Assembly: GCA_963662175.1 (NCBI GenBank)
Contig: OY759215.1
Location: 14,497,079 to 14,561,078 of the forward strand
Source of the DNA: Aradus depressus
Lineage: Eukaryota; Arthropoda; Insecta; Hemiptera; Aradidae
Direction of reading: 5' to 3'
DNA length: 64,000 nt
Position 1 is the first letter of the stretch; every line of letters starts with the position of its first letter. Below, one piece after another: positions 14,768 through 54,600 of this stretch. A program made the position numbers and the translations under genes. A model generated the notes under the pieces. That model was not told the DNA's origin and made no database searches. It saw nothing but the letters and a program-made list of their open reading frames with translations.

Positions 14768-15365
14768 TGTACTCCCTTCAAGGAGTGGTATAGATGGGAT
14801 ATAGTGTCACCCTTAGTGCTACCATTTCAAGTAGCATAGGTTGGATGTTTACTAAATCTAAACGTAAAGTGTAGATGATCATGAAAAAGAAGAAAAAAAA
14901 AAACAAAAAAAACTTCTTTCAGTGTTTACTAAACAATGAAACCTTCGAGAAAGGAACCTATTCCATTGTATCGCCAAGGTACGTAGTTGGATGTAATGTA
15001 GATTATAGCGTGAAGTACGTGGGCGCCGGGAGGGATGTTGTCAATTAGGAACGTACAACAACAAGCTTGTAAGGAAGACAAGGGATCCGATGCGGGGACA
15101 GACAAGATCATGGTCCAGGCCCGCAGGCACTTCGCAGACTGACGCTTGGCTCGCAAGAGTTCCTCCAAGTTAATACTTCACCTTACTTCAAGAGCCTTCT
15201 TCAGGACCCATGAACTTCCTCAAGTAATCTTCGGTCAATAGAATTTTCGAAGATGGCTCATACAAAATGTGAAAATGTGCGAACGAGACGCCTTGAAAAC
15301 TTTCTACAGCGATCAGTTACTAACTGCATTTCTTCTCTTTGAAAAAAGTATAACACTAGAGGAAT

Positions 15366-15475
15366 CAATAAATAAAACAAACTTATTTTTGAAATATTGT
15401 CTATTCCACCAAAGATATTTACAAAACTACCGATTTCGGCCTTACAACATCGTCAGGTCTAGTTATGAACTAAGT
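15366..15475 (-). mobile_element. Single arm of the 21291-type hammerhead-bearing element
   Basis: About 105 bp matching one arm of 21291-21573: AATAAAACAAACTTATTTTT, TATTGTCTATTCCACCAAAG, then the CGATTTCGGC...CGTCAGGTCTAGTTATGAAC segment. The second arm is absent. Confidence 0.75.
15424..15460 (-). ncRNA. Hammerhead-like motif, minus strand
   Basis: Minus reading: ACCTGACGATGTTGTAAGGC then CGAAATCGGTAGTT. The CTGANGA box, extra T, weak stem II and GAAAT (instead of GAAAC) make it a diverged version of 21476-21510. Confidence 0.35.
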
Positions 15476-21166: not shown

Positions 21167-21398
21167 ACCACAATAAACGATGACTCCCTCAGTCCAGTAC
21201 TGTGTGATATTACGCAGATATTTTGCGCTCGTTAGCGCCTGGCTGACCGTATAGGTGGATAAACGATGCCGGTATCAATTAATTTAAGAACTTCTAAGTT
21301 GAGGAACGCGGACATATTGTGGAAACTTGTAATAAATGAATAAAACAAACTTATTTTTTGAAATATTGTCTATTCCACTAAAGATATATATACATATA

Positions 21399-21475: not shown

Positions 21476-21510
21476 GACCTGACGATGGTATAAAGCCGAA
21501 ACCGGTAGTT
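21476..21510 (+). ncRNA. Hammerhead ribozyme-like motif (type I, dimer-type)
   Basis: CTGACGA (21479-21485), one extra T, stem II GGT/GCC, GAAA (21498-21501), then ACCGGT (21501-21506), which is self-complementary and could pair between two molecules as stem III. A follows as the cleavage-site base, and GTT (21508-21510) pairs with GAC (21476-21478) as stem I. The extra T and short stems are deviations from the classical core. Activity is unproven. Confidence 0.45.
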
Positions 21511-21599
21511 ATATGTATATATATCTTTAGTGGAATAGACAATATTTCAAAAAATAAGTTTGTTTTATTCATTAATTAATTTAAGAAACATACTACTTT

Positions 21600-24440: not shown

Positions 24441-24717
24441 AACATAAAATGGAAGAGGAAGATAGATATAGGCGAAGTACCTATAAACTGTAAGAAGGCT
24501 ATTAACGAGAATCATCACAACTCAGCAAAATGTTTTTATTTGTATTATTAATTATTCATTTTGATTTTTATTATTATTTTTTATTACCTACTATTATTTA
24601 TTTATCATATTATTATTTAAATACGTACATTATATTTCTTGGTGGTAGGCAGATGTAGTGGACTAACTTGGAAAATAAGTAATTAGATTTATCAATCCAA
24701 CATATTTTTTTGTTTAA

Positions 24718-24760
24718 ACCACAACTAGTTTCGGCAATTTGCCATCTACAGGTGGTGAAT
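24718..24760 (-). ncRNA. Hammerhead-like motif with a core mutation
   Basis: Minus reading CTGTAGA (A6 changed to T), T, GGCA/TGCC hairpin, GAAAC, TAGT. Mirror of 24857-24894; the core change would be expected to kill activity. Confidence 0.3.
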
Positions 24761-24856
24761 CTTTCTAGAGAAGAGGTCAAGGGACACGTTCGAGTATCAG
24801 GGACCAGCTGGACACTGATACTCAAATGTGTCCCTTGACCTCTTCTCTAGAAAGAT

Positions 24857-24894
24857 TCACCTGAAGATGGCAAATTGCCGAAACTAGTCGTGGT
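24857..24894 (+). ncRNA. Hammerhead ribozyme-like motif (type I, dimer-type)
   Basis: CTGAAGA (24861-24867), extra T, stem II GGCA/TGCC (24869-24872, 24876-24879), GAAA (24880-24883), self-complementary ACTAGT (24883-24888) as potential intermolecular stem III, C (24889) at the cleavage position, and stem I GTGG (24890-24893) pairing with TCAC (24857-24860). This is the best-paired case in the window. Confidence 0.5.
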
Positions 24895-25264
24895 TTAAAT
24901 TTAAAAAAAAAAATATGTTGGACTGATAAATCTAATTACTTATTTACGTACATTATCTTCACAACAGTTACAAGATAACCATCACGAAGGTTGAAGAAGA
25001 GGTGGAACCGCGACTTATTGCCACCTTGAATCATATTCGTTATTAATATTTTTCAACATTATTTTCATATACTTTTATTACCTCTCTTATTACCCACCCA
25101 TCAAAATTGTCTTACAATTCCTTTTTATTTATTTAATTATTATTAATTTTTTTTTTGGTCCTAATAATCAAGATAAATGTTTGTCCCGAGGGCCTACCAC
25201 TGGGTGGCCTTCCTCTCACACACCATATCTACATGTTCATCATAGATACTGGTTGTTGCACGTA

Positions 25265-25560
25265 TATATATACATATATATTTTTTCTCTTTTCTATATT
25301 TCGCAGATTGTGACCTGATGAAGGGATGAAAGAACATCGCAAATCTTCGTTTTGAAAAAGACACTTCTAAAAGAATTATAACTAATATTTATCATAATTT
25401 GAATTAAATTAAAAACTTTGTACTCATGTATTTTTAATTATTTATTTATTTCATTTTATTTTTTACTAGTATTGTTATTACTAACGACATGTGTGTCCGA
25501 CTCTAAGAGTTAATATCTGTTTATGTATCTAATTTATAAGCTATATTAAAAAGTATACTT
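25265..25560 (+). mobile_element. Module T tail, diverged
   Basis: TTGTGACCTGATGAAGGGAT, then GTATTGTTATTACTAACGAC and GACTCTAAGAGTTAATATCT parallel 4680-4990 and 53240-53620. The hammerhead-like core is decayed. It follows directly on a Jockey 3' UTR. Confidence 0.65.
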
Positions 25561-27608: not shown

Positions 27609-28780
27609 ATTTTTTTTTTTTTTGGCTTTTATTCATAAAGATGCAACTGTTGCTAGGGGGCAACAACCAGCATCTATGTTGGTAGGTATGGAGACGTTGG
27701 CGTGAATGGCATGTGAGAGGAAGGCCACCCAGTGGTAGGTCCTCGGGACGAAAATTTATATTAATTATAAGGACAAGGGAAAAAAAAAATAAAATAATAA
27801 AAATAATAATAATAATAATAATTAAAAAAAAAAAATAAATAAATAAAAAGGAATTGAAAGACAACTTTGATGGAATGGGTAAGAGAGATGAGAAAAGTGA
27901 AGGAAAATAATGTAAAAGAATAAAAAATAAAAATAAAAATATTAAGAACGAATAGGAATTAAGGTGGCAGTAAGTCGCGGTTCCACCTCCTCTTCAACCT
28001 TCGTGGGGGGTTTTGTGGTAAGTGTTGTGAAGATAAAGTACGTATTTCTGGATTTGTATGTGTGTAAAGTTTTCTAAAAAAACGTATGTAAATAGTTTGT
28101 ATTGTGTCGGGTACTGTGTGTATCATAAGATCGTTATGAAGTGTTCTGTTGTTTATGTATGGGGGGCATTGTGTTATCAGCCTGAGGGTTTTTGACTGAA
28201 ATGCCTGAATTCGTTTGATGTTGGATGTTTTTGCTGAACCGTATATCTGTGATCCGTATGTCCATAATGGTCTAAGTAAGTAAGTATAACAGTTCCGTTT
28301 TTGTGTCATGTCTAATTTTGATCGTCTATTTAGAAGTCCGTAGAGTATTTTGAGTCGACGGTTCAGCGTGTTTCGTGTGAGACGTGTGTGAGGATTCCAT
28401 GTCAGTCTTCGATCCAATGTCAGTCCTAGGTATCGTACAGTATTAGTTTGAGGGAGGGGCTTGTCGTAGATGAAAACGGGGGGGCATGTTTCTCGTCGAA
28501 GTGTAAATGTGATGTGCTGTGATTTTTCTGTATTTAGTTTGATTTTCCATGTGTTGCACCAGTTTTCAATTTGTGTGAGATGGTGTTGTAGTGTAAATGA
28601 GGCGTGTATGTGAAGGTCAGCAGCAGCTAAGATGGCGGTGTCATCGGCGTATGTAGCTGTCATTGTGTGGATGGAGGTGGGCATGTCAGATGTGTATATT
28701 GTATATAATAAAGGAGCTAAGACAGAACCCTGCGGTACACCCGCCAATATGGGTCTTATTGAGGAGATAGCAGAGTTTTT
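27609..28780 (-). pseudogene. Jockey-type non-LTR retrotransposon, RT C-terminal half and 3' UTR
   Basis: Largest element-derived frame (stop at 27959). Translation from about 28780 gives RT motif B (AGVPQGSVLAPLLYTIYTSD), catalytic YADD with TAIL, a thumb-region RYLGLTLDRRLTW, and the Jockey C-terminus NPPRRLKRRWNRDLL. Endonuclease, RT fingers and the first catalytic aspartate are missing, so it is a 5'-truncated copy. Upstream of 28780 the open frame continues only through unrelated AT-rich, hydrophobic translation and should not be counted. The 3' UTR ends AATAAAAGCC plus 14 A residues at 27610-27623. Full-length Jockey ORF2 is roughly 900 residues; about 270 remain. Confidence 0.85.
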
Positions 28781-29079
28781 GAATATAATAATAAAAAAAT
28801 TTAAAAATAGAAAAAATAATAAAAATACATAAAATAATATACCAAGAGAAATAAAATAAATTAGTACCAAATAATGAGAAATAATGATGAAATATAACGT
28901 AGATTCGACAGGAGTGGAAGAACTCATAGAGATCTCCTGTATATCAAGCCGTTCACGTCATTTTATTTTTACTTCTTTATACATTTATAAAGAAGTAACT
29001 CGAACAAAAACGATTGTGGCAATGAACCAGATTTTTTTTTATATAAAGAATTATTTACAGCTGTATAAAAAATATATAC

Positions 29080-33250: not shown

Positions 33251-33386
33251 CACATATATATACATATATATGGTCACATTTTCTCAGTTACTGCATTAGT
33301 TATTTAACTGATCCTTCATAAGTTACCGAATCAAAATTCAAAACATTTTAATTTTAAACATTTTTTGTTGTATAACTTTTTTTTTA

Positions 33387-33445
33387 ATTTCCTCAGTTAC
33401 TGTATTAGACATAAATTATAGAATTATTACAGTAACTGAGGAAAT
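33387..33445. repeat. Perfect 18 bp inverted repeat
   Basis: ATTTCCTCAGTTACTGTA at 33387-33404 and its exact complement at 33428-33445, loop 23 nt. Confidence 0.85.
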
Positions 33446-33468
33446 GGGAAAACAAATTATAGAACAAA

Positions 33469-34056
33469 AAATGTTATTAGTTACTAGTTGTAAAAGTTAT
33501 TAATTAGTTACTAGTTAATAACTATTTTGTTATTAGGTTTTTATGACTCATGCCCGAGCTTTAACTACGAGGTCATATCGCCTACTACCAGAGCGCTCTT
33601 TCGTCACTCTGGTGGACATGAGCCCGACTCTACTGTGGGAGTCCTAAATTTTGCCTACCCTAAATTTTTATTCATCTAGGGTAGGGGTCTTTAACGAGTA
33701 CCTGACATCGTACAGGCTCGGGACCATCGCTTAACGTCCCATCCGAAGGACGGCGTGCTTAAGTTTATTTTACCTCCCAGATAAAATAAACTAAGGGCCT
33801 CGGTCGGGCTACGAACCCACGACCTTGAGCTCAGAAGTCAAGCACGCATACCACTGAGCTACCGGCGCCCTCATTTTGTTATTAGTTACTAATGAATAAC
33901 TATTTGTTATTAGTTACTAGTTAATAACTACTTGTTATTAGTTACTAGTTAATAACTATTTGTTATTAGTTACTAGTTAATAACTATTTGTTATTAGTTA
34001 CTAGTTAATAACTATTTGTTATTAGTTACTAGTTAATAACTATTTGTTATTAGTTA
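33469..34056 (+). repeat. 28 bp satellite array interrupted by a SINE
   Basis: Unit TTATTAGTTACTAGTTAATA ACTATTTG with anchors at 33879, 33907, 33935, 33963, 33991, 34019 and 34047, an exact 28 bp period. One to two diverged units lie left of the SINE. Confidence 0.9.
33537..33872 (-). mobile_element. SINE family S, full length with 13 bp target duplication
   Basis: Reference copy for the family: 336 bp flanked by ATTTTGTTATTAG at 33524-33536 and 33873-33885. The flanks have four T residues where other satellite units have three, so the repeat is a true target duplication and not part of the array. Minus strand: A box TAGCTCAGTGG, B box GGTTCGTAGCC, non-tRNA body, 3' end CATGAGTCATAAAAAC. 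Confidence 0.92.
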
Positions 34057-34102
34057 CGATATCAATAATTCGTCCTACATAAGCTATAAATATAAATAGA
34101 AT

Positions 34103-42897: not shown

Positions 42898-43917
42898 CCG
42901 TTGATTAATGCTGCGACCACTTTTTGTTTTTATTTTTAGCCTTATAATTAGCCAGAATTAAGCTAAAATTGAATATGAGGCAAGGTACACTTTTTCAATT
43001 GCAGTCTGAATGCAGACTGCAACGATGTGAGAAACTAGCTCCTGCAATTTAGAATCGTTGTACCCCAGTTCTCTCCTTGTTAGTATGGCAATTAGAACAA
43101 TACAGCTGTCCTTTTCAGCCCTAATTGCACCGACACAGCTGTTCACTGCATTGCCAAGAGTCGGCGTCTTTCATACAATTAAAAAGTAATTTTTCACCTA
43201 GTTGTAATACTGTATTTTGTTATATATCCAAGTTGGGAGACATTTTAAAGGGAACTTTTTTTTTTCTTTTGAGGTTGTCTGTTGTTAATAAAGGAACACA
43301 GAATTGTTGACCCAAAAGTTTATTTGGCTAGACCACACACCCGACGAGAATGTCTCAAGAAAACATTATTTTGTTTCAGACTGTCTGGTTCTAGATGACA
43401 GACCGGTCACAATCCTAGAAGAAAACTACAACTAAATTAAAAAAAATATTCGATGAGTCACCGGCAAGATTCATCCCCATAACGAAGTAATCAATCAACG
43501 TTTCGCTACCCCTATAAAACCAGTCGACAGTTTGCGCTAATATATTCAACAGTTGACTTATATAGGGGTTCCTAAATCCTCATACTAATTTTTTCGTTGA
43601 TAAATTCAATACATCGTTATTAGGGTATTTCAATTGAGCCACCTCCCCGGAACCCCCCATTCCCTTCAGCCGATATCGCTGACGTTTGACAGGTTATGTC
43701 CACATTGGGTTTTAACTTTAAATATGAAATTTCATATCGATACATTCATTACATCCGCAGTTATTGGGGTTTCTGAGTTGAGCCCCCCCTCTGACCCACT
43801 CCTCCCCTTCTAACGTTTCCTCTAAAAATTAATATAGATGTTTGCTAGCGACTGTAGAATTCAAAATTTTGGGGGGTATTGAAGGTCAGTCAATGATGAA
43901 AACACTATTCAAATGCC

Positions 43918-43951
43918 AACGTTTCGATATATTTCATATCATCATCAGGGC
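43918..43951 (-). ncRNA. Hammerhead-like motif, left arm
   Basis: Minus reading identical in core to 44218-44254 (CTGATGA, T, GATAT/ATATC hairpin, GAAAC, GTT). Confidence 0.4.
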
Positions 43952-44217
43952 CTAACAAACATGGGGGAATCAAGATTACAAAAATATAATGAGTGATTGA
44001 TTAAAATTATATATAGGTACATAAATATACATTCACAAATCCACATAAATACATATATACATAAATATACATCATGTGTATGTATATGGATGTATATTTA
44101 TGTATATATGTATTTATATGGATTTGTGTATGTGTGAATGTATATTTATGTACCTATATATAATTTAATCAATCACTCATTATATTTTTGTAATCTTGAT
44201 TCCCCCATGTTTGTTAG

Positions 44218-44254
44218 GCCCTGATGATGATATGAAATATATCGAAACGTTGGC
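44218..44254 (+). ncRNA. Hammerhead ribozyme-like motif (type I, dimer-type)
   Basis: CTGATGA (44221-44227), extra T, stem II GATAT/ATATC (5 bp, loop GAAAT), GAAA (44244-44247), self-complementary AACGTT (44246-44251), stem I GGC (44252-44254) with GCC (44218-44220). With no loop between the halves, stem III could form only between two molecules. Confidence 0.45.
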
Positions 44255-44689
44255 ATTTGAATAGTGTTTTCATCATTGACTGACCCTCAATACCCCCAGA
44301 ATTTTGAATTCTAAAAATTAATAAGTGTCTCCCTTTTGGTGTTTTGAATTCACATATGAAATTTTGTGTTGATATATTCATTACAATGGCAGCTATTTGA
44401 GTTTTTGAGTTAAGCCTCTCTTCTAATCCCCCTCTCCCATTTGACTGACTTGGCTGAAAATCGATAGGTTTTGTCCTTATGGGGATTTGTTTCACACATA
44501 TAAAACTTCGTGACGATACATTAATTTTATCGGCAGTTATTACAGTATTTATCTTAACCCTACCCCCTAATCCCCATTCCTTTCGGTCGATTTGGCTGAA
44601 AAACAATAGGTGTCGTTAGAGGGTTCTGGATTTACATATAAAATTTCATCTTGATACATTCGTGTTCACAGACAGCCCCAATGTGTCAA

Positions 44690-46378: not shown

Positions 46379-46430
46379 AGGAAACGCCCCTCTGTCCTTC
46401 ATAATAAGAATGACTTACATACTATGTAAC

Positions 46431-46618
46431 AACTTCAAAATTGAGGAACGCGGACATATTGTGGAAACTTGTAATAAATGAATAAAACAAACTTATTTTT
46501 GAAATATTGTCTATTCCACTAAAGATATATATATATATACAACTACCGGTTTCGGCTTTATACCATGGTATATATATCCTTAGTGGAATAGACAATATTT
46601 CAAAAATAATTTTGTTTT
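46431..46618 (+). mobile_element. Shortened copy of the 21291-type palindromic insertion, 12 bp target duplication
   Basis: Direct repeat ATACTATGTAAC at 46419-46430 and 46619-46630. Same unique start (TTGAGGAACGCGGACATATT) and arms as 21291-21573, but the centre, including the CTGACGA box, is deleted between CCATGG halves. Confidence 0.85.
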
Positions 46619-46639
46619 ATACTATGTAACTACAAGAAA

Positions 46640-47224: not shown

Positions 47225-48290
47225 ATCTGTATCCAGATCTGTCTAAGGACGACACCTATTGATTTTCAGCCAATTCGGCCAAAGGGAAAGTGGAGTTTCG
47301 AGAGTAGACATAACACAAAAAGTCTAAAATAACTGCGGCCATAATGAATTTAATGAGCGAATAAATCAATTAACGTTTCGCTCTCCCTCCAAGACCAGTC
47401 GCCCGTGTGCGCTATTATTCAATATTTGACATACATAGGGGCTCTTATATACTCATACAGAATTTTGTGAATATAAATTCATTATATCAGCAGTTATAAG
47501 GCCTCCTAGTTGAGCTTCCCCTCTGATCCCCCCCTTCCCTTCAGCCGATATCGCTGGAATTTGACAGGTTACCTCCTCATTGGGTTTTGACTTTAAATAT
47601 GAAATTTCATGTCGATACATTCACTATATCGGCAGTTATTAGGGCTTTTGAGTTGAGCTCCCCCTCTGATCCCCCTCTCCCTTTAGCCGATAACGCTGAA
47701 ATTTGACAGGTTACCTCCTCATTGGGTTTTGACTTTAAATATGAAATTTCATGTCTATAAATATGAAAATTCATTATATCGGCAGTTATTAGGGTTTTTG
47801 AGTTGAGCTCCCCCTCTGATCCCCCTTCCCTTCTATCAATTTCGCTGAAAATTAATGTGTCGTCCTTATGAACTTTTGAATTCACATATGAAATTTAGTC
47901 TCGATACATTCATAACAACGGCAGCTATTAGAGTTTTTGAGTTAATCCTCTACTCTAATCCCTCGTATGTATATTCAAAGCTATATAAGGACGAAACATT
48001 AATTTTCAGCGGAATTAGCCTAACGAGAGGGGGCTCAAATCAAAAATAACATGAAATTGTATATTAAAATTCAAACCCAATGGGATCCCAAGAAAATGAG
48101 GGTCGGACTCAAATACCCTATTAACTGCTGATGTAATGAATGTATCGAAACAAAATTTAATATGATGATTCACAAGGCACTGGCCCAAACTGTCGATTGA
48201 CTTTAGAGGGAGAGCCGAAAAGTACTTGATTAATTTGTGCTGGAGAAGTACATAGCCAGTGATTCACCGAAGGCCATTTATTTTGTTGGT
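47225..48290. repeat. Family M cluster: minus, plus (multi-unit), minus
   Basis: 47225-47345 minus piece, 47345-47965 plus piece with four internal units, 47975-48290 minus piece ending GTGCTGGAGAAGTACATAGC. GCCGATA anchors at 47544 and 47686 give a 142 bp period; the next is at about 47834 after a small insertion. The frame 47607-47885 is a product of the repeat. Confidence 0.85.
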
Positions 48291-48837: not shown

Positions 48838-49060
48838 TTTACTTCCCAGCTATACAAAAGTACAGGGGAAGTTATAACATCGGTCAGAAATTCGATGCTG
48901 AGTTTTTAACAAAATTTCAGGTTTTCGATCCTCCGATTCGAACTATAGAAAAACAAATTCTGGCAGAATGTATGTATAGACAAGAAATTGTATAAATGTA
49001 ACCAGAACTCTTTAAGGACGACGACAACCATTAATTTTAAGGGAGGGCTTAACACAAAAA

Positions 49061-49561
49061 ATACGACTCGATACATCGGGAAAGTCTGTGGGCTATGATG
49101 AGAGAATTTAAAGTCCCGGAAAAACTCATAAGAATGGTAAAGGCATGTATCGAAGGAGCAAAAAGCAGAGTTATGGTCCAAGGAGAACTTTCGGAGCCCT
49201 TCGATGTTATGAGTGGCCTCAAGCAAGGTGACTGCCTCTCCCCTCGCCTGTTCAACCTGGCCCTTGAGCGAGTGATAAGGCAGGTGATGAGGAACGAGGA
49301 AGGCACCCAGATAGCCGGAGAAAACGGAGTCCTGGCGTATGCGGATGACGTGGCCTTCTTAGGAACAGCCCAGAAGAAGCTAAAAGTAAGGCGGGCAAAC
49401 TACTTAAGCACAGCTGCAGAGTAGGGCTGGAAGTTAATGTCGACAAGAGCGACTACCTTATAGTCAGGCTTATAGTCTGGCGCACGACAGATCGCGGTGG
49501 AGAAGGCTAGTGTGGGCGGCTAAGGATCTTCAGGGTTCGTCGCCAACGGAGTAAGAGTAAG
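49061..49561 (+). pseudogene. Non-LTR reverse transcriptase core fragment between 11 bp direct repeats
   Basis: From 49062 in frame: YDSIHRESLWAMMREF (motif A with the first catalytic aspartate), GLKQGDCLSPRLFNLALERV (motif B) and YADD (motif C, residues 82-85 from ATG 49095). After a frameshift near 49425 another frame gives GLEVNVDKSDYL (motif D). Lacks endonuclease, fingers, thumb and RNase H. Flanked by TAACACAAAAA at 49050-49060 and 49562-49572. Different RT lineage from the Jockey fragments (GLKQGD rather than GVPQGS). Confidence 0.8.
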
Positions 49562-52796: not shown

Positions 52797-53116
52797 CTCC
52801 GGCTATCGTGAAGTCAATAGATACAATAAAAAAATTTTAATTTCAACTAAAAATGTTCATGTTAGAGAAAACCCTATACACGGAAACGCAATTTTATTCT
52901 CACTGTTCAAAAAGAATAATATAATCACAATAAAGAATCGTGTTTCATGTCCAGAAACATTATTTGATACAAAGCTTTCATTTTATTTTTTGGGCAGAGT
53001 TCCTCCACACCTTAAAGGTCAGTCTAATGTACGTTATTGTTTTATTTATTCATTTATAATTTTTTATTTATTTAGACTTTTATATACATTCATTTATAAT
53101 TGATTAATCTATATTT

Positions 53117-53192
<76 letters not shown>

Positions 53193-53626
53193 TTTCATAT
53201 ATTGTTATAGTTACATTGTTTTCTTTCTTTTCTATATCTCGCACATAGGGACCTGATGATGGGACGTAAGAACGTCCCGAAACATCGTTGAGATAAAAAC
53301 ACTTCTGAGTTTTTTTTGTGAAAAATAGTTATTTTAATTTTTATTAAATTGAAAAATGTGTCTACTTATTATAAACGTATCTTGTATTAATTTGTTTATA
53401 CACTCATATATTTTAAAGTATTTATTTGTTCAGTTTTTATTAATTTCATTTTCCTTGTTTTTAATAGTTTCGTTATTACTACTAATCATAGGTGTGTTAG
53501 ACTCAAGTAGTTATACATCTATATCTTAAGGTATAAATTCTTTTGACGTATCCTATTACCATGTATTGGTTTAACGGAAATAAATTTATCATTATTACTA
53601 TTATTATTATTATTATCCACTGTATT
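52797..53626 (+). pseudogene. LINE-B C-terminal scrap plus module T tail
   Basis: Starts in the coding end of LINE-B (frame SIDTIKKF-like, compare 53774-54600), then 3' UTR, an (AT)n tract at about 53121-53187, the hammerhead-like core, and the module T end TTTAACGGAAATAAATTTAT plus (ATT)n. Confidence 0.7.
53251..53291 (+). ncRNA. Hammerhead-like motif in module T
   Basis: CTGATGA (53253-53259), extra T, strong 6 bp stem II GGGACG/CGTCCC, GAAAC (53279-53283), ATC, GTT. Stem III AC/GT possible; stem I pairing is poor (1 bp). Counterparts at 4728, 25315 and 27310-27355 are decayed. Confidence 0.35.
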
Positions 53627-53773
53627 GGCTAAAAACTAATAGCCAACTTCACGGAGTCTTCTGAATCCTCTTAATATATTTAGTATCGATACTTTCATTA
53701 CATAGGCAGCTATTGAGATTTTTGTGTTAGGCCTCCCCTAATCCCCCCTTTCTCTTTAGCCGGTTGGTTGAAA
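53627..53773 (+). repeat. Family M unit forming the spacer between two LINE tails
   Basis: ATCGATACTTTCATTACATA, then TTAGGCCTCCCCTAATCCCC. Both flanking retroelements end against this 147 bp. Confidence 0.7.
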
Positions 53774-54091
53774 ATTAATAATAATTTATTTCCGTTAAAC
53801 CAATACATGGTAATAGGATACGTCAAATGAATTTATACATTATGATAGCTTATAAATTAGATTTATAACTACTTGAGTCTAACACATCTATGATTAGTAG
53901 TAACAAAAAAAAACATTAAAAAAAGTAAAATTAAATTAATAAAAACTGTACAAATAAGTACTTAAAAATATATGAGTATATAAAAAAAATAAAAAAAAAT
54001 AATAATAATACAAGATACGTTCATAATAAGTAAACACTTTTCAATTTAATAAAAATTAAGATAGGTAACTATTTTTCAAAGAAAACTCTTC

Positions 54092-54159
<68 letters not shown>

Positions 54160-54600
54160 TATAAATGAATGTATGAAAATGTCTAAATAAAAAAAATATA
54201 TATAAATTAATAAATAAAACAATAACGTACATTGGACTGACTTTTAAGGTGTGGAGGAACTCTGCCCAAAATATAAAAATGAAAGCTTTGTATTAAATAA
54301 TGATTTTGGATATGAAAAACTATTCTTTATTGTGATTATATTATTCTTTTTGAACAGTGAGAATAAAATTGCGTTTCCGTGTATAGGGTTTTCTCTAACA
54401 TGAACATTTTTAGTTGAAATTTAAATTTTTTTATTGTATCTATTGACTTCAAGAAGTGGGGAAGGGCATTAAATAAATTAATTCCTTTATGAGTTATACT
54501 TTTTTCAAAAAGAGAAGAGCAATGTTTAGTTATTCGAAAGTCTTCTTTCTTCCTGGTATCGTAATCTTGTCTAGTATTGTTGCGGTATGATAATAGGTGA
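53774..54600 (-). pseudogene. LINE-B: C-terminal coding region and module T tail
   Basis: Minus strand from about 54590: NTRQDYDTRKKEDFRITKHC, then SSLFEKSITHKGINLFNALP and HFLKSIDTIKKFKFQLKMFM. The order YNTR......R..SLFEKS....G...FN.LP..IK.....F...LK is the C-terminal region of many LINE proteins outside Jockey. Then a 3' UTR with an (AT)n tract (54094-54158), and module T to the TAA repeat at 53774. No ATG needed for a fragment; reverse transcriptase catalytic motifs are missing. Confidence 0.65.

Follow-up and report, generated by a model that had tools for sequence, protein, structure and literature searches.

The window analysed here, a 64,000-nucleotide stretch of Aradus depressus contig OY759215.1, contains an insertion without an open reading frame (24634-24944, family P2) that probably derives from the terminus of a Penelope-like retroelement, with two pLTRs, one tailed and one tailless, lying head to head between target-site duplications. 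The most probable origin of such palindromes is a pair of cDNAs, one primed on each side of a break at the two known RT start sites of Penelope, that were joined head to head. The parts of the P2 insertion are as follows:

24622-24633, no strand assigned: left target-site duplication TACGTACATTAT, 12 bp
24634-24672, minus strand: 39-nt one-sided tail that extends past the left arm and has no right-hand partner
24673-24807, minus strand: left arm, an inverted pLTR with tail
24719-24751, minus strand: left-arm hammerhead motif with the altered core CTGTAGA, where 36 of 40 copies read CTGAAGA
24808-24945, plus strand: right arm, a pLTR without tail, its final base overlapping the duplication
24857-24893, plus strand: right-arm hammerhead motif TCAC CTGAAGA T GGCAAATTGCC GAAA CTAGT C / GTGG, cut predicted at 24889/24890
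24945-24956, no strand assigned: right target-site duplication TACGTACATTAT, 12 bp

The 311-base insertion between 12-bp direct repeats that had been described from the letters alone was borne out, with TACGTACATTAT on both sides, as were its inverted arms (24673-24807 and 24808-24945), which are nearly complementary. The arms abut with no spacer, and their alignment to each other gave 124 identities, 8 mismatches, and 9 gap positions. The retro-type character of the insertion is supported by target duplications of variable length (8–18 bp) and by the one-sided tail, which is taken as the segment between two RT start sites, following the definition of the tail in PMC11167929. An uninterrupted relative of the P2 site (28047-27914) carries one near-identical copy of the duplication and aligns to the right flank and to 3 nt left of the duplication.

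The genome (698 Mb in 74 contigs) was searched for further copies. The P2 set comprised 40 loci, the best 40 of 1928 candidates, namely the window copy and 39 others that cover at least 307 of the 311 bases at 88–94% identity. The 39-nt tail was present in all 39 fetched copies, the query itself having included it, and target duplications of 8–18 bp flanked 33 of the 39, compared with a mean of 0.75 when left flanks were paired with the right flanks of other copies. For the sister family P1, we likewise took the best 40 of 919 candidates (39 fetched in addition to the window copy); 19 of the first 20 fetched had duplications of 10–14 bp (control, 0.55). Inverted pLTRs, a one-sided tail, and variable target duplications were thus all found in P2. 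Head-to-head palindromes are a real multi-copy class, and the fetched copies, as the best matches to one-tailed palindromic queries, do not show how frequent palindromes are relative to other forms of insertion. The sequence-only reading had proposed an inverted dimer captured in a single event; the dimer stands, and the single event is replaced by this multi-copy class.

Short, palindromic, multi-copy sequences with flanking duplications also resemble MITE-like DNA transposons with long terminal inverted repeats. That origin is highly improbable here: the duplications range from 8 to 18 bp and are not of fixed length, the two ends differ by the 39-nt tail on one side, the central joints vary between P1 copies, and the P1 arm flanks ORFs with RT and GIY-YIG domains (see below). 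Of the outcomes named beforehand as counting against the Penelope interpretation, the lack of an Rfam call was observed, whereas the copies proved not to be ordinary terminal-inverted-repeat transposons. Palindromes of this kind could be misannotated as MITEs or microRNA precursors. We rejected a microRNA precursor for P2, as family matches on the hairpin fell below gathering scores and any long hairpin gives such matches.

Further members of this class, and one single-armed relative, were present in the window:

15363-15475, minus strand: P5, a single-armed member of the P1 family
21277-21290, second copy at 21574-21587: P1 target-site duplication AATTAATTTAAGAA
21291-21573, no strand assigned: P1, palindromic insertion of the multi-copy sister family, with hammerheads at 21479 (plus) and 21429 (minus)
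43821-43834 and 44310-44323: P3 duplication TCTAAAAATTAATA
43835-44309, no strand assigned: P3, third palindromic insertion, tail of approximately 20 nt, with hammerheads at 44221 (plus) and 43948 (minus)
46419-46430 and 46619-46630: P4 duplication ATACTATGTAAC
46431-46618, no strand assigned: P4, palindromic, second window copy of the P1 family, its arms ending before the inferred RNA 5′ end is reached

P1, P3, and P4 each have duplications of 12–14 bp and a one-sided tail, and the centre of P4 falls inside the hammerhead. An empty-site relative of P3 (47732-47962) matches at 81% across the join; the relatives of the P1 and P2 sites span one side and the duplication only, and a search for an uninterrupted relative of the P4 site found none. 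A satellite-like repeat of approximately 142 bp, which recurs across the window (47473-47943 and many other places), hosts P3 and adjoins P1. A fifth palindromic stretch (33357-33475, 79%), without a hammerhead motif, lies beside a 28-bp tandem repeat (33875-34057).

The link to Penelope was direct for P1. Among 1852 candidate GIY-YIG matches in the genome, 150 were scored, and all those listed exceeded the Pfam cut-off. We examined 40 GIY-YIG loci (30 from the search and 10 picked for long frames, with some overlap), and the P1 arm occurred in 15 of them at 89–97% identity. The ORFs of two loci (L134 and L137) contained both RVT_1 and GIY-YIG, and three loci (L137, L112, and L140) had inverted pLTRs, one tailed and one tailless, with duplications of 12–13 bp. 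The P1 arm is accordingly the pLTR of elements that encode RT and GIY-YIG. The P2 arm had no match (E 1e-4) in the 40 examined loci of the 1852 candidates, while its anatomy is common with that of P1; the proposed Penelope-like terminus therefore holds directly for the sister family and by analogy of anatomy for P2. A PDB sequence search with the L134 ORF gave no match. A second Penelope family (L131, G000:C8:9960001-9970000) has an 859-aa frame with RVT_1 and GIY-YIG and carries hammerheads in direct and inverted orientation, with AGCCGGCT as stem III. Within the window, Pfam analysis of 10 ORFs detected RVT_1 in two (27962-28957, minus strand, and 49053-49421, plus strand) and GIY-YIG in none of the 10; these two ORFs are fragments of the reverse transcriptases of other retrotransposons.

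The hammerhead motif had been described as well paired in the arms. From 24861, the right arm reads CTGAAGA, T, GGCAAATTGCC, GAAA, ACTAGT (sharing the last A of GAAA), C, and GTGG, and its 4-bp stem I (TCAC/GTGG) consists of three Watson-Crick pairs and one U.G pair. The description was correct for this arm, where the core is intact, and failed for the left arm, where the conserved core is changed to CTGTAGA. Assignment to the minimal type I hammerheads is supported by the CTGANGA and GAAA core around stems I–III in the right arm, with an extra U following the core. The pattern CTGANGA-N4-30-CGAAAC matched five times in the window (0.11 in shuffles), with the T in all five; the matches fall at four places, three of which are inside palindromes (binomial probability of 2.9e-5, with palindromic stretches making up 1.94% of the window).

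The extra T, which the sequence-only reading had noted as conserved without placing it, is found in each of the five window motifs as well as in the main motifs of two coding Penelope families, so it is not peculiar to 24634-24944; in P1 and the second family, these motifs adjoin the coding elements. Exceptions are a decayed copy at 25315, which has A, and a variant in L133, which reads CTGATGAGATG. A viroid hammerhead with an extra core nucleotide is known, and a U at this place reportedly raises activity.

The suggested covariance-model check gave a divided answer. An Rfam scan returned no match at gathering thresholds, the Hammerhead_1 model reaching 11.4 bits (E 3.7) where its cut-off is 34, whereas a model built from nine window copies found 12 sites at E < 1e-5; nine of these sites are the training set itself, and a further one (43905-43964) is identical to a training row. 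Across the P2 copies (the best 40 of 1928 candidates), the core was intact in 36 of 40 left arms and in 36 of 40 right arms. In a sample of nine related sequences and five pairs, stems I and II remained paired across families of differing letters (86.7% of cells). Double-sided changes in these stems numbered 6, against 2.7 in shuffles (as high in 2 of 500), while further pair types were no more frequent than in shuffles (307 of 500). Stem III is self-complementary in four families of the genome (ACTAGT, ACCGGT, ACGT, and AGCCGGCT) and is not so in a fifth, family S.

Family S is a dispersed, non-palindromic repeat with copies at 53253 (plus), 25315 (plus), 4728 (plus), and 27344 (minus); each has one hammerhead-like motif with a stem III that is not self-complementary, and the copies are alike for approximately 200 nt downstream. 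Matches of hammerhead patterns to viral contigs (L001–L006) were discarded, since the DNA concerned was of a G+C-rich phage type or otherwise did not match, and lacked palindromes. One sister-arm pattern had no match, and phage and plasmid records likewise gave none.

Both arms include the hammerhead core in all 40 aligned P2 copies and begin upstream of the motif in 39 of 40 P1 copies. Since both arms extend through the motif, the templates were uncut at the hammerhead. Another reading, which we regard as possible, though doubtful, is that the hammerhead likeness is only a conserved pLTR stretch without ribozyme activity in this genome. It agrees with the copying of the fetched arms through an uncut motif, with the failure of Rfam to recognise the motif, and with an in vitro study in which hammerhead mutants left insertion unaffected (PMC11167929). 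Against it, families that differ in sequence have retained the core and both stems I and II, as the excess of double-sided changes (6 against 2.7) indicates, and minimal type I hammerheads of Penelope elements have been published, one of which cleaves when protein is present (PMC11167929).

In 39 of 40 P1 copies (the 39 fetched and the window copy; best 40 of 919 candidates), both arms end at AGTTCATAAC, which lies 15 nt ahead of the hammerhead core, with 2 and 3 substitutions allowed in the joint anchors; L098 and P4 depart from this common end. The 39 P1 joints contained 38 distinct fillers of 4–33 nt, as L062 and L064 have one filler in common between different target duplications. P5 has a longer upstream sequence, with which some P1 fillers begin or end. 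Extensions of at least 4 nt into the sequence upstream of AGTTCATAAC were present on the left side of 7 of the 39 joints and on the right side of 8, so that the RNA probably has no single fixed 5′ base. Among residual fillers of at least 6 nt, 16 of 25 contained an arm match of at least 7 nt, compared with 4.0 after shuffling, as templated end joining would give. One palindromic copy (L078, G000:C9:4637036-4637658) has host flanks that are mutual inverted repeats; either the region was duplicated in inverted orientation around the element or the assembly is at fault. We dropped it as a two-tailed copy, its host flanks being likewise inverted; it is still counted among the 39 joints.

The centres were far more uniform in P2 than in P1, with small joint differences among P2 copies as well. 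The asymmetric P2 centre is ATCAGGGACCAGCTGGACACTGAT (type A) or its reverse complement (type B), so that, viewed from the tail, both orientations occur. In the whole genome, exact patterns tied to the P2 tail matched 48 times as A and 31 times as B (P = 0.071 against equality). Among the 40 aligned copies, retrieved with a type A query, 25 were nearer A and 15 nearer B, with L030 and L036 ambiguous. The P2 arms differed by 3.2% within a copy and by 4.1–4.5% between copies, and in only 4 of 40 copies was the similarity between the two arms greater than that to the nearest left arm among the other copies; on its own, within-copy arm similarity is a weak line of evidence. Mirrored changes in both arms numbered 36 against 0.43 expected, with 27 in an A+T-rich run of unsure alignment and 9 outside it. 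The 38 different P1 fillers at a constant arm end, together with both orientations of the P2 centre, suggest that the palindrome was probably made anew at each insertion.

These joints bear on two other ways of producing a palindrome. The palindrome itself could be the mobile unit, copied whole from a hairpin transcript, as might be expected from the identical ends and nearly identical centre of the 40 aligned P2 copies and from L062 and L064, which have a filler in common but differ in target site, as if an already formed palindrome had propagated; this pair counts against the two-cDNA model. We nevertheless consider such copying quite unlikely, given 38 distinct fillers in 39 P1 joints and the occurrence of both P2 centre orientations also within sequence subtypes. 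Alternatively, a single cDNA could fold back at the RNA 5′ end and copy itself into the second arm. Self-priming on an antisense template was the explanation given for palindromes at inverted Penelope junctions of Adineta vaga in the passages of PMC3846280 compared here; the short imperfect palindrome at the P2 centre could fold back in this way, and the mirrored arm changes, including the 9 outside the A+T-rich run, point in the same direction. However, self-priming predicts a single centre orientation relative to the tail, whereas both are common (48 and 31); in 39 of 40 P1 copies, the second arm starts at the inferred RNA 5′ end irrespective of the filler; and the P2 joints lack a loop around which a cDNA could fold. 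Self-priming is thus an unlikely origin, and two cDNAs agree better with private fillers between arms that end at a constant point and with a centre that lies in both orientations.

We propose that two such cDNAs would arise as follows. A Penelope particle would cut both target strands in A+T-rich DNA, and each target 3′ end would prime RT within the pLTR RNA, the tail site serving one and the no-tail site the other. Both cDNAs would pass the hammerhead, left uncut, and continue as far as the RNA 5′ end, where end joining would link them either with a short filler or through annealing of a short palindromic sequence. Since each palindrome has one arm from each RT start site, one cDNA per side of the break is the simplest reading. 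The anatomy, target duplications, copy number, variable joints, and link of P1 to RT and GIY-YIG elements are observed, whereas priming from both sides, the position of the RNA 5′ end, the joining of the cDNAs, and the use of P1-like machinery by P2 are inferences. Counting against the model are the far greater uniformity of the P2 centres, the deviating arm ends of P4 and L098, the filler extensions upstream of AGTTCATAAC, the small number of P2 copies (4 of 40) with arms most alike within the copy, and the lack of a P2 arm in the 40 GIY-YIG loci examined.

The closest experimental parallel is the Poseidon protein of Anolis carolinensis (PAc), which cleaves both target strands in A+T-rich sequence and extends each of them, starts RT at two internal sites with the tail as the stretch between them, and inserted normally with hammerhead mutants, cleavage requiring the protein (PMC11167929). 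The insertions as modelled here share with PAc the two RT starts with a tail between them and the A+T-rich targets, and uncut templates are common to both: in PAc, the hammerhead lies at the pLTR-ORF junction and uncut RNA is the main template (PMC11167929). The PAc data are, however, in vitro, with tandem genomic copies and no palindromic solo insertions in the main text (PMC11167929), and, unlike in PAc, the reading frame from the ATG of the motif ends here after a few codons. The genomic joints tie the two RT starts and two-strand cleavage seen in vitro to events in a genome.

In the compared passages of PMC3846280, the EN-containing Penelope of Adineta vaga is similar to the present elements in its inverted pLTRs with an optional 31-bp tail on one, duplications of 8–10 bp, palindromes at inverted joints, and solo pLTRs. 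The present inverted pairs differ from what those passages describe in being ORF-less multi-copy families whose dozens of joints favour two cDNAs, and the hammerheads that belong to the motif set here are absent from the passages. With dozens of readable head-to-head joints, self-priming and two-sided priming become testable by counting. The small Penelope hammerheads that are reported to cleave as dimers (Lunse 2017) are likewise minimal type I with a very short, self-complementary stem III. Metazoan non-LTR retrozymes, in the part of PMC7229834 considered, are also short non-coding repeats with type I hammerheads; they are arranged head to tail with full hammerheads and circular RNAs, whereas the copies here are head-to-head pairs with minimal motifs, and we rejected a metazoan retrozyme on these grounds. 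A literature search, with most subscription papers outside its reach, found no paper on palindromic solo pLTRs with hammerheads.

The palindromes bear on the insertion route of Penelope elements, on the inverted arrangement of their copies, and on the role of their hammerheads. A speculative and rather unlikely extension of the two-cDNA model is that Penelope acts as a two-RNA particle, in which the templates would be held together by the self-complementary stem III and one copied per side of the break, making the palindrome the normal product. If so, a hammerhead that works only as a dimer would be an RNA dimer linker and a sensor of both templates, and not mainly scissors.

The window also contains a large inverted structure (52806-54454), the outer arms of which are 93% alike and the inner arms 81%. 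The hammerhead at 53253 lies on its left side only, the right arm being without a counterpart at that position.
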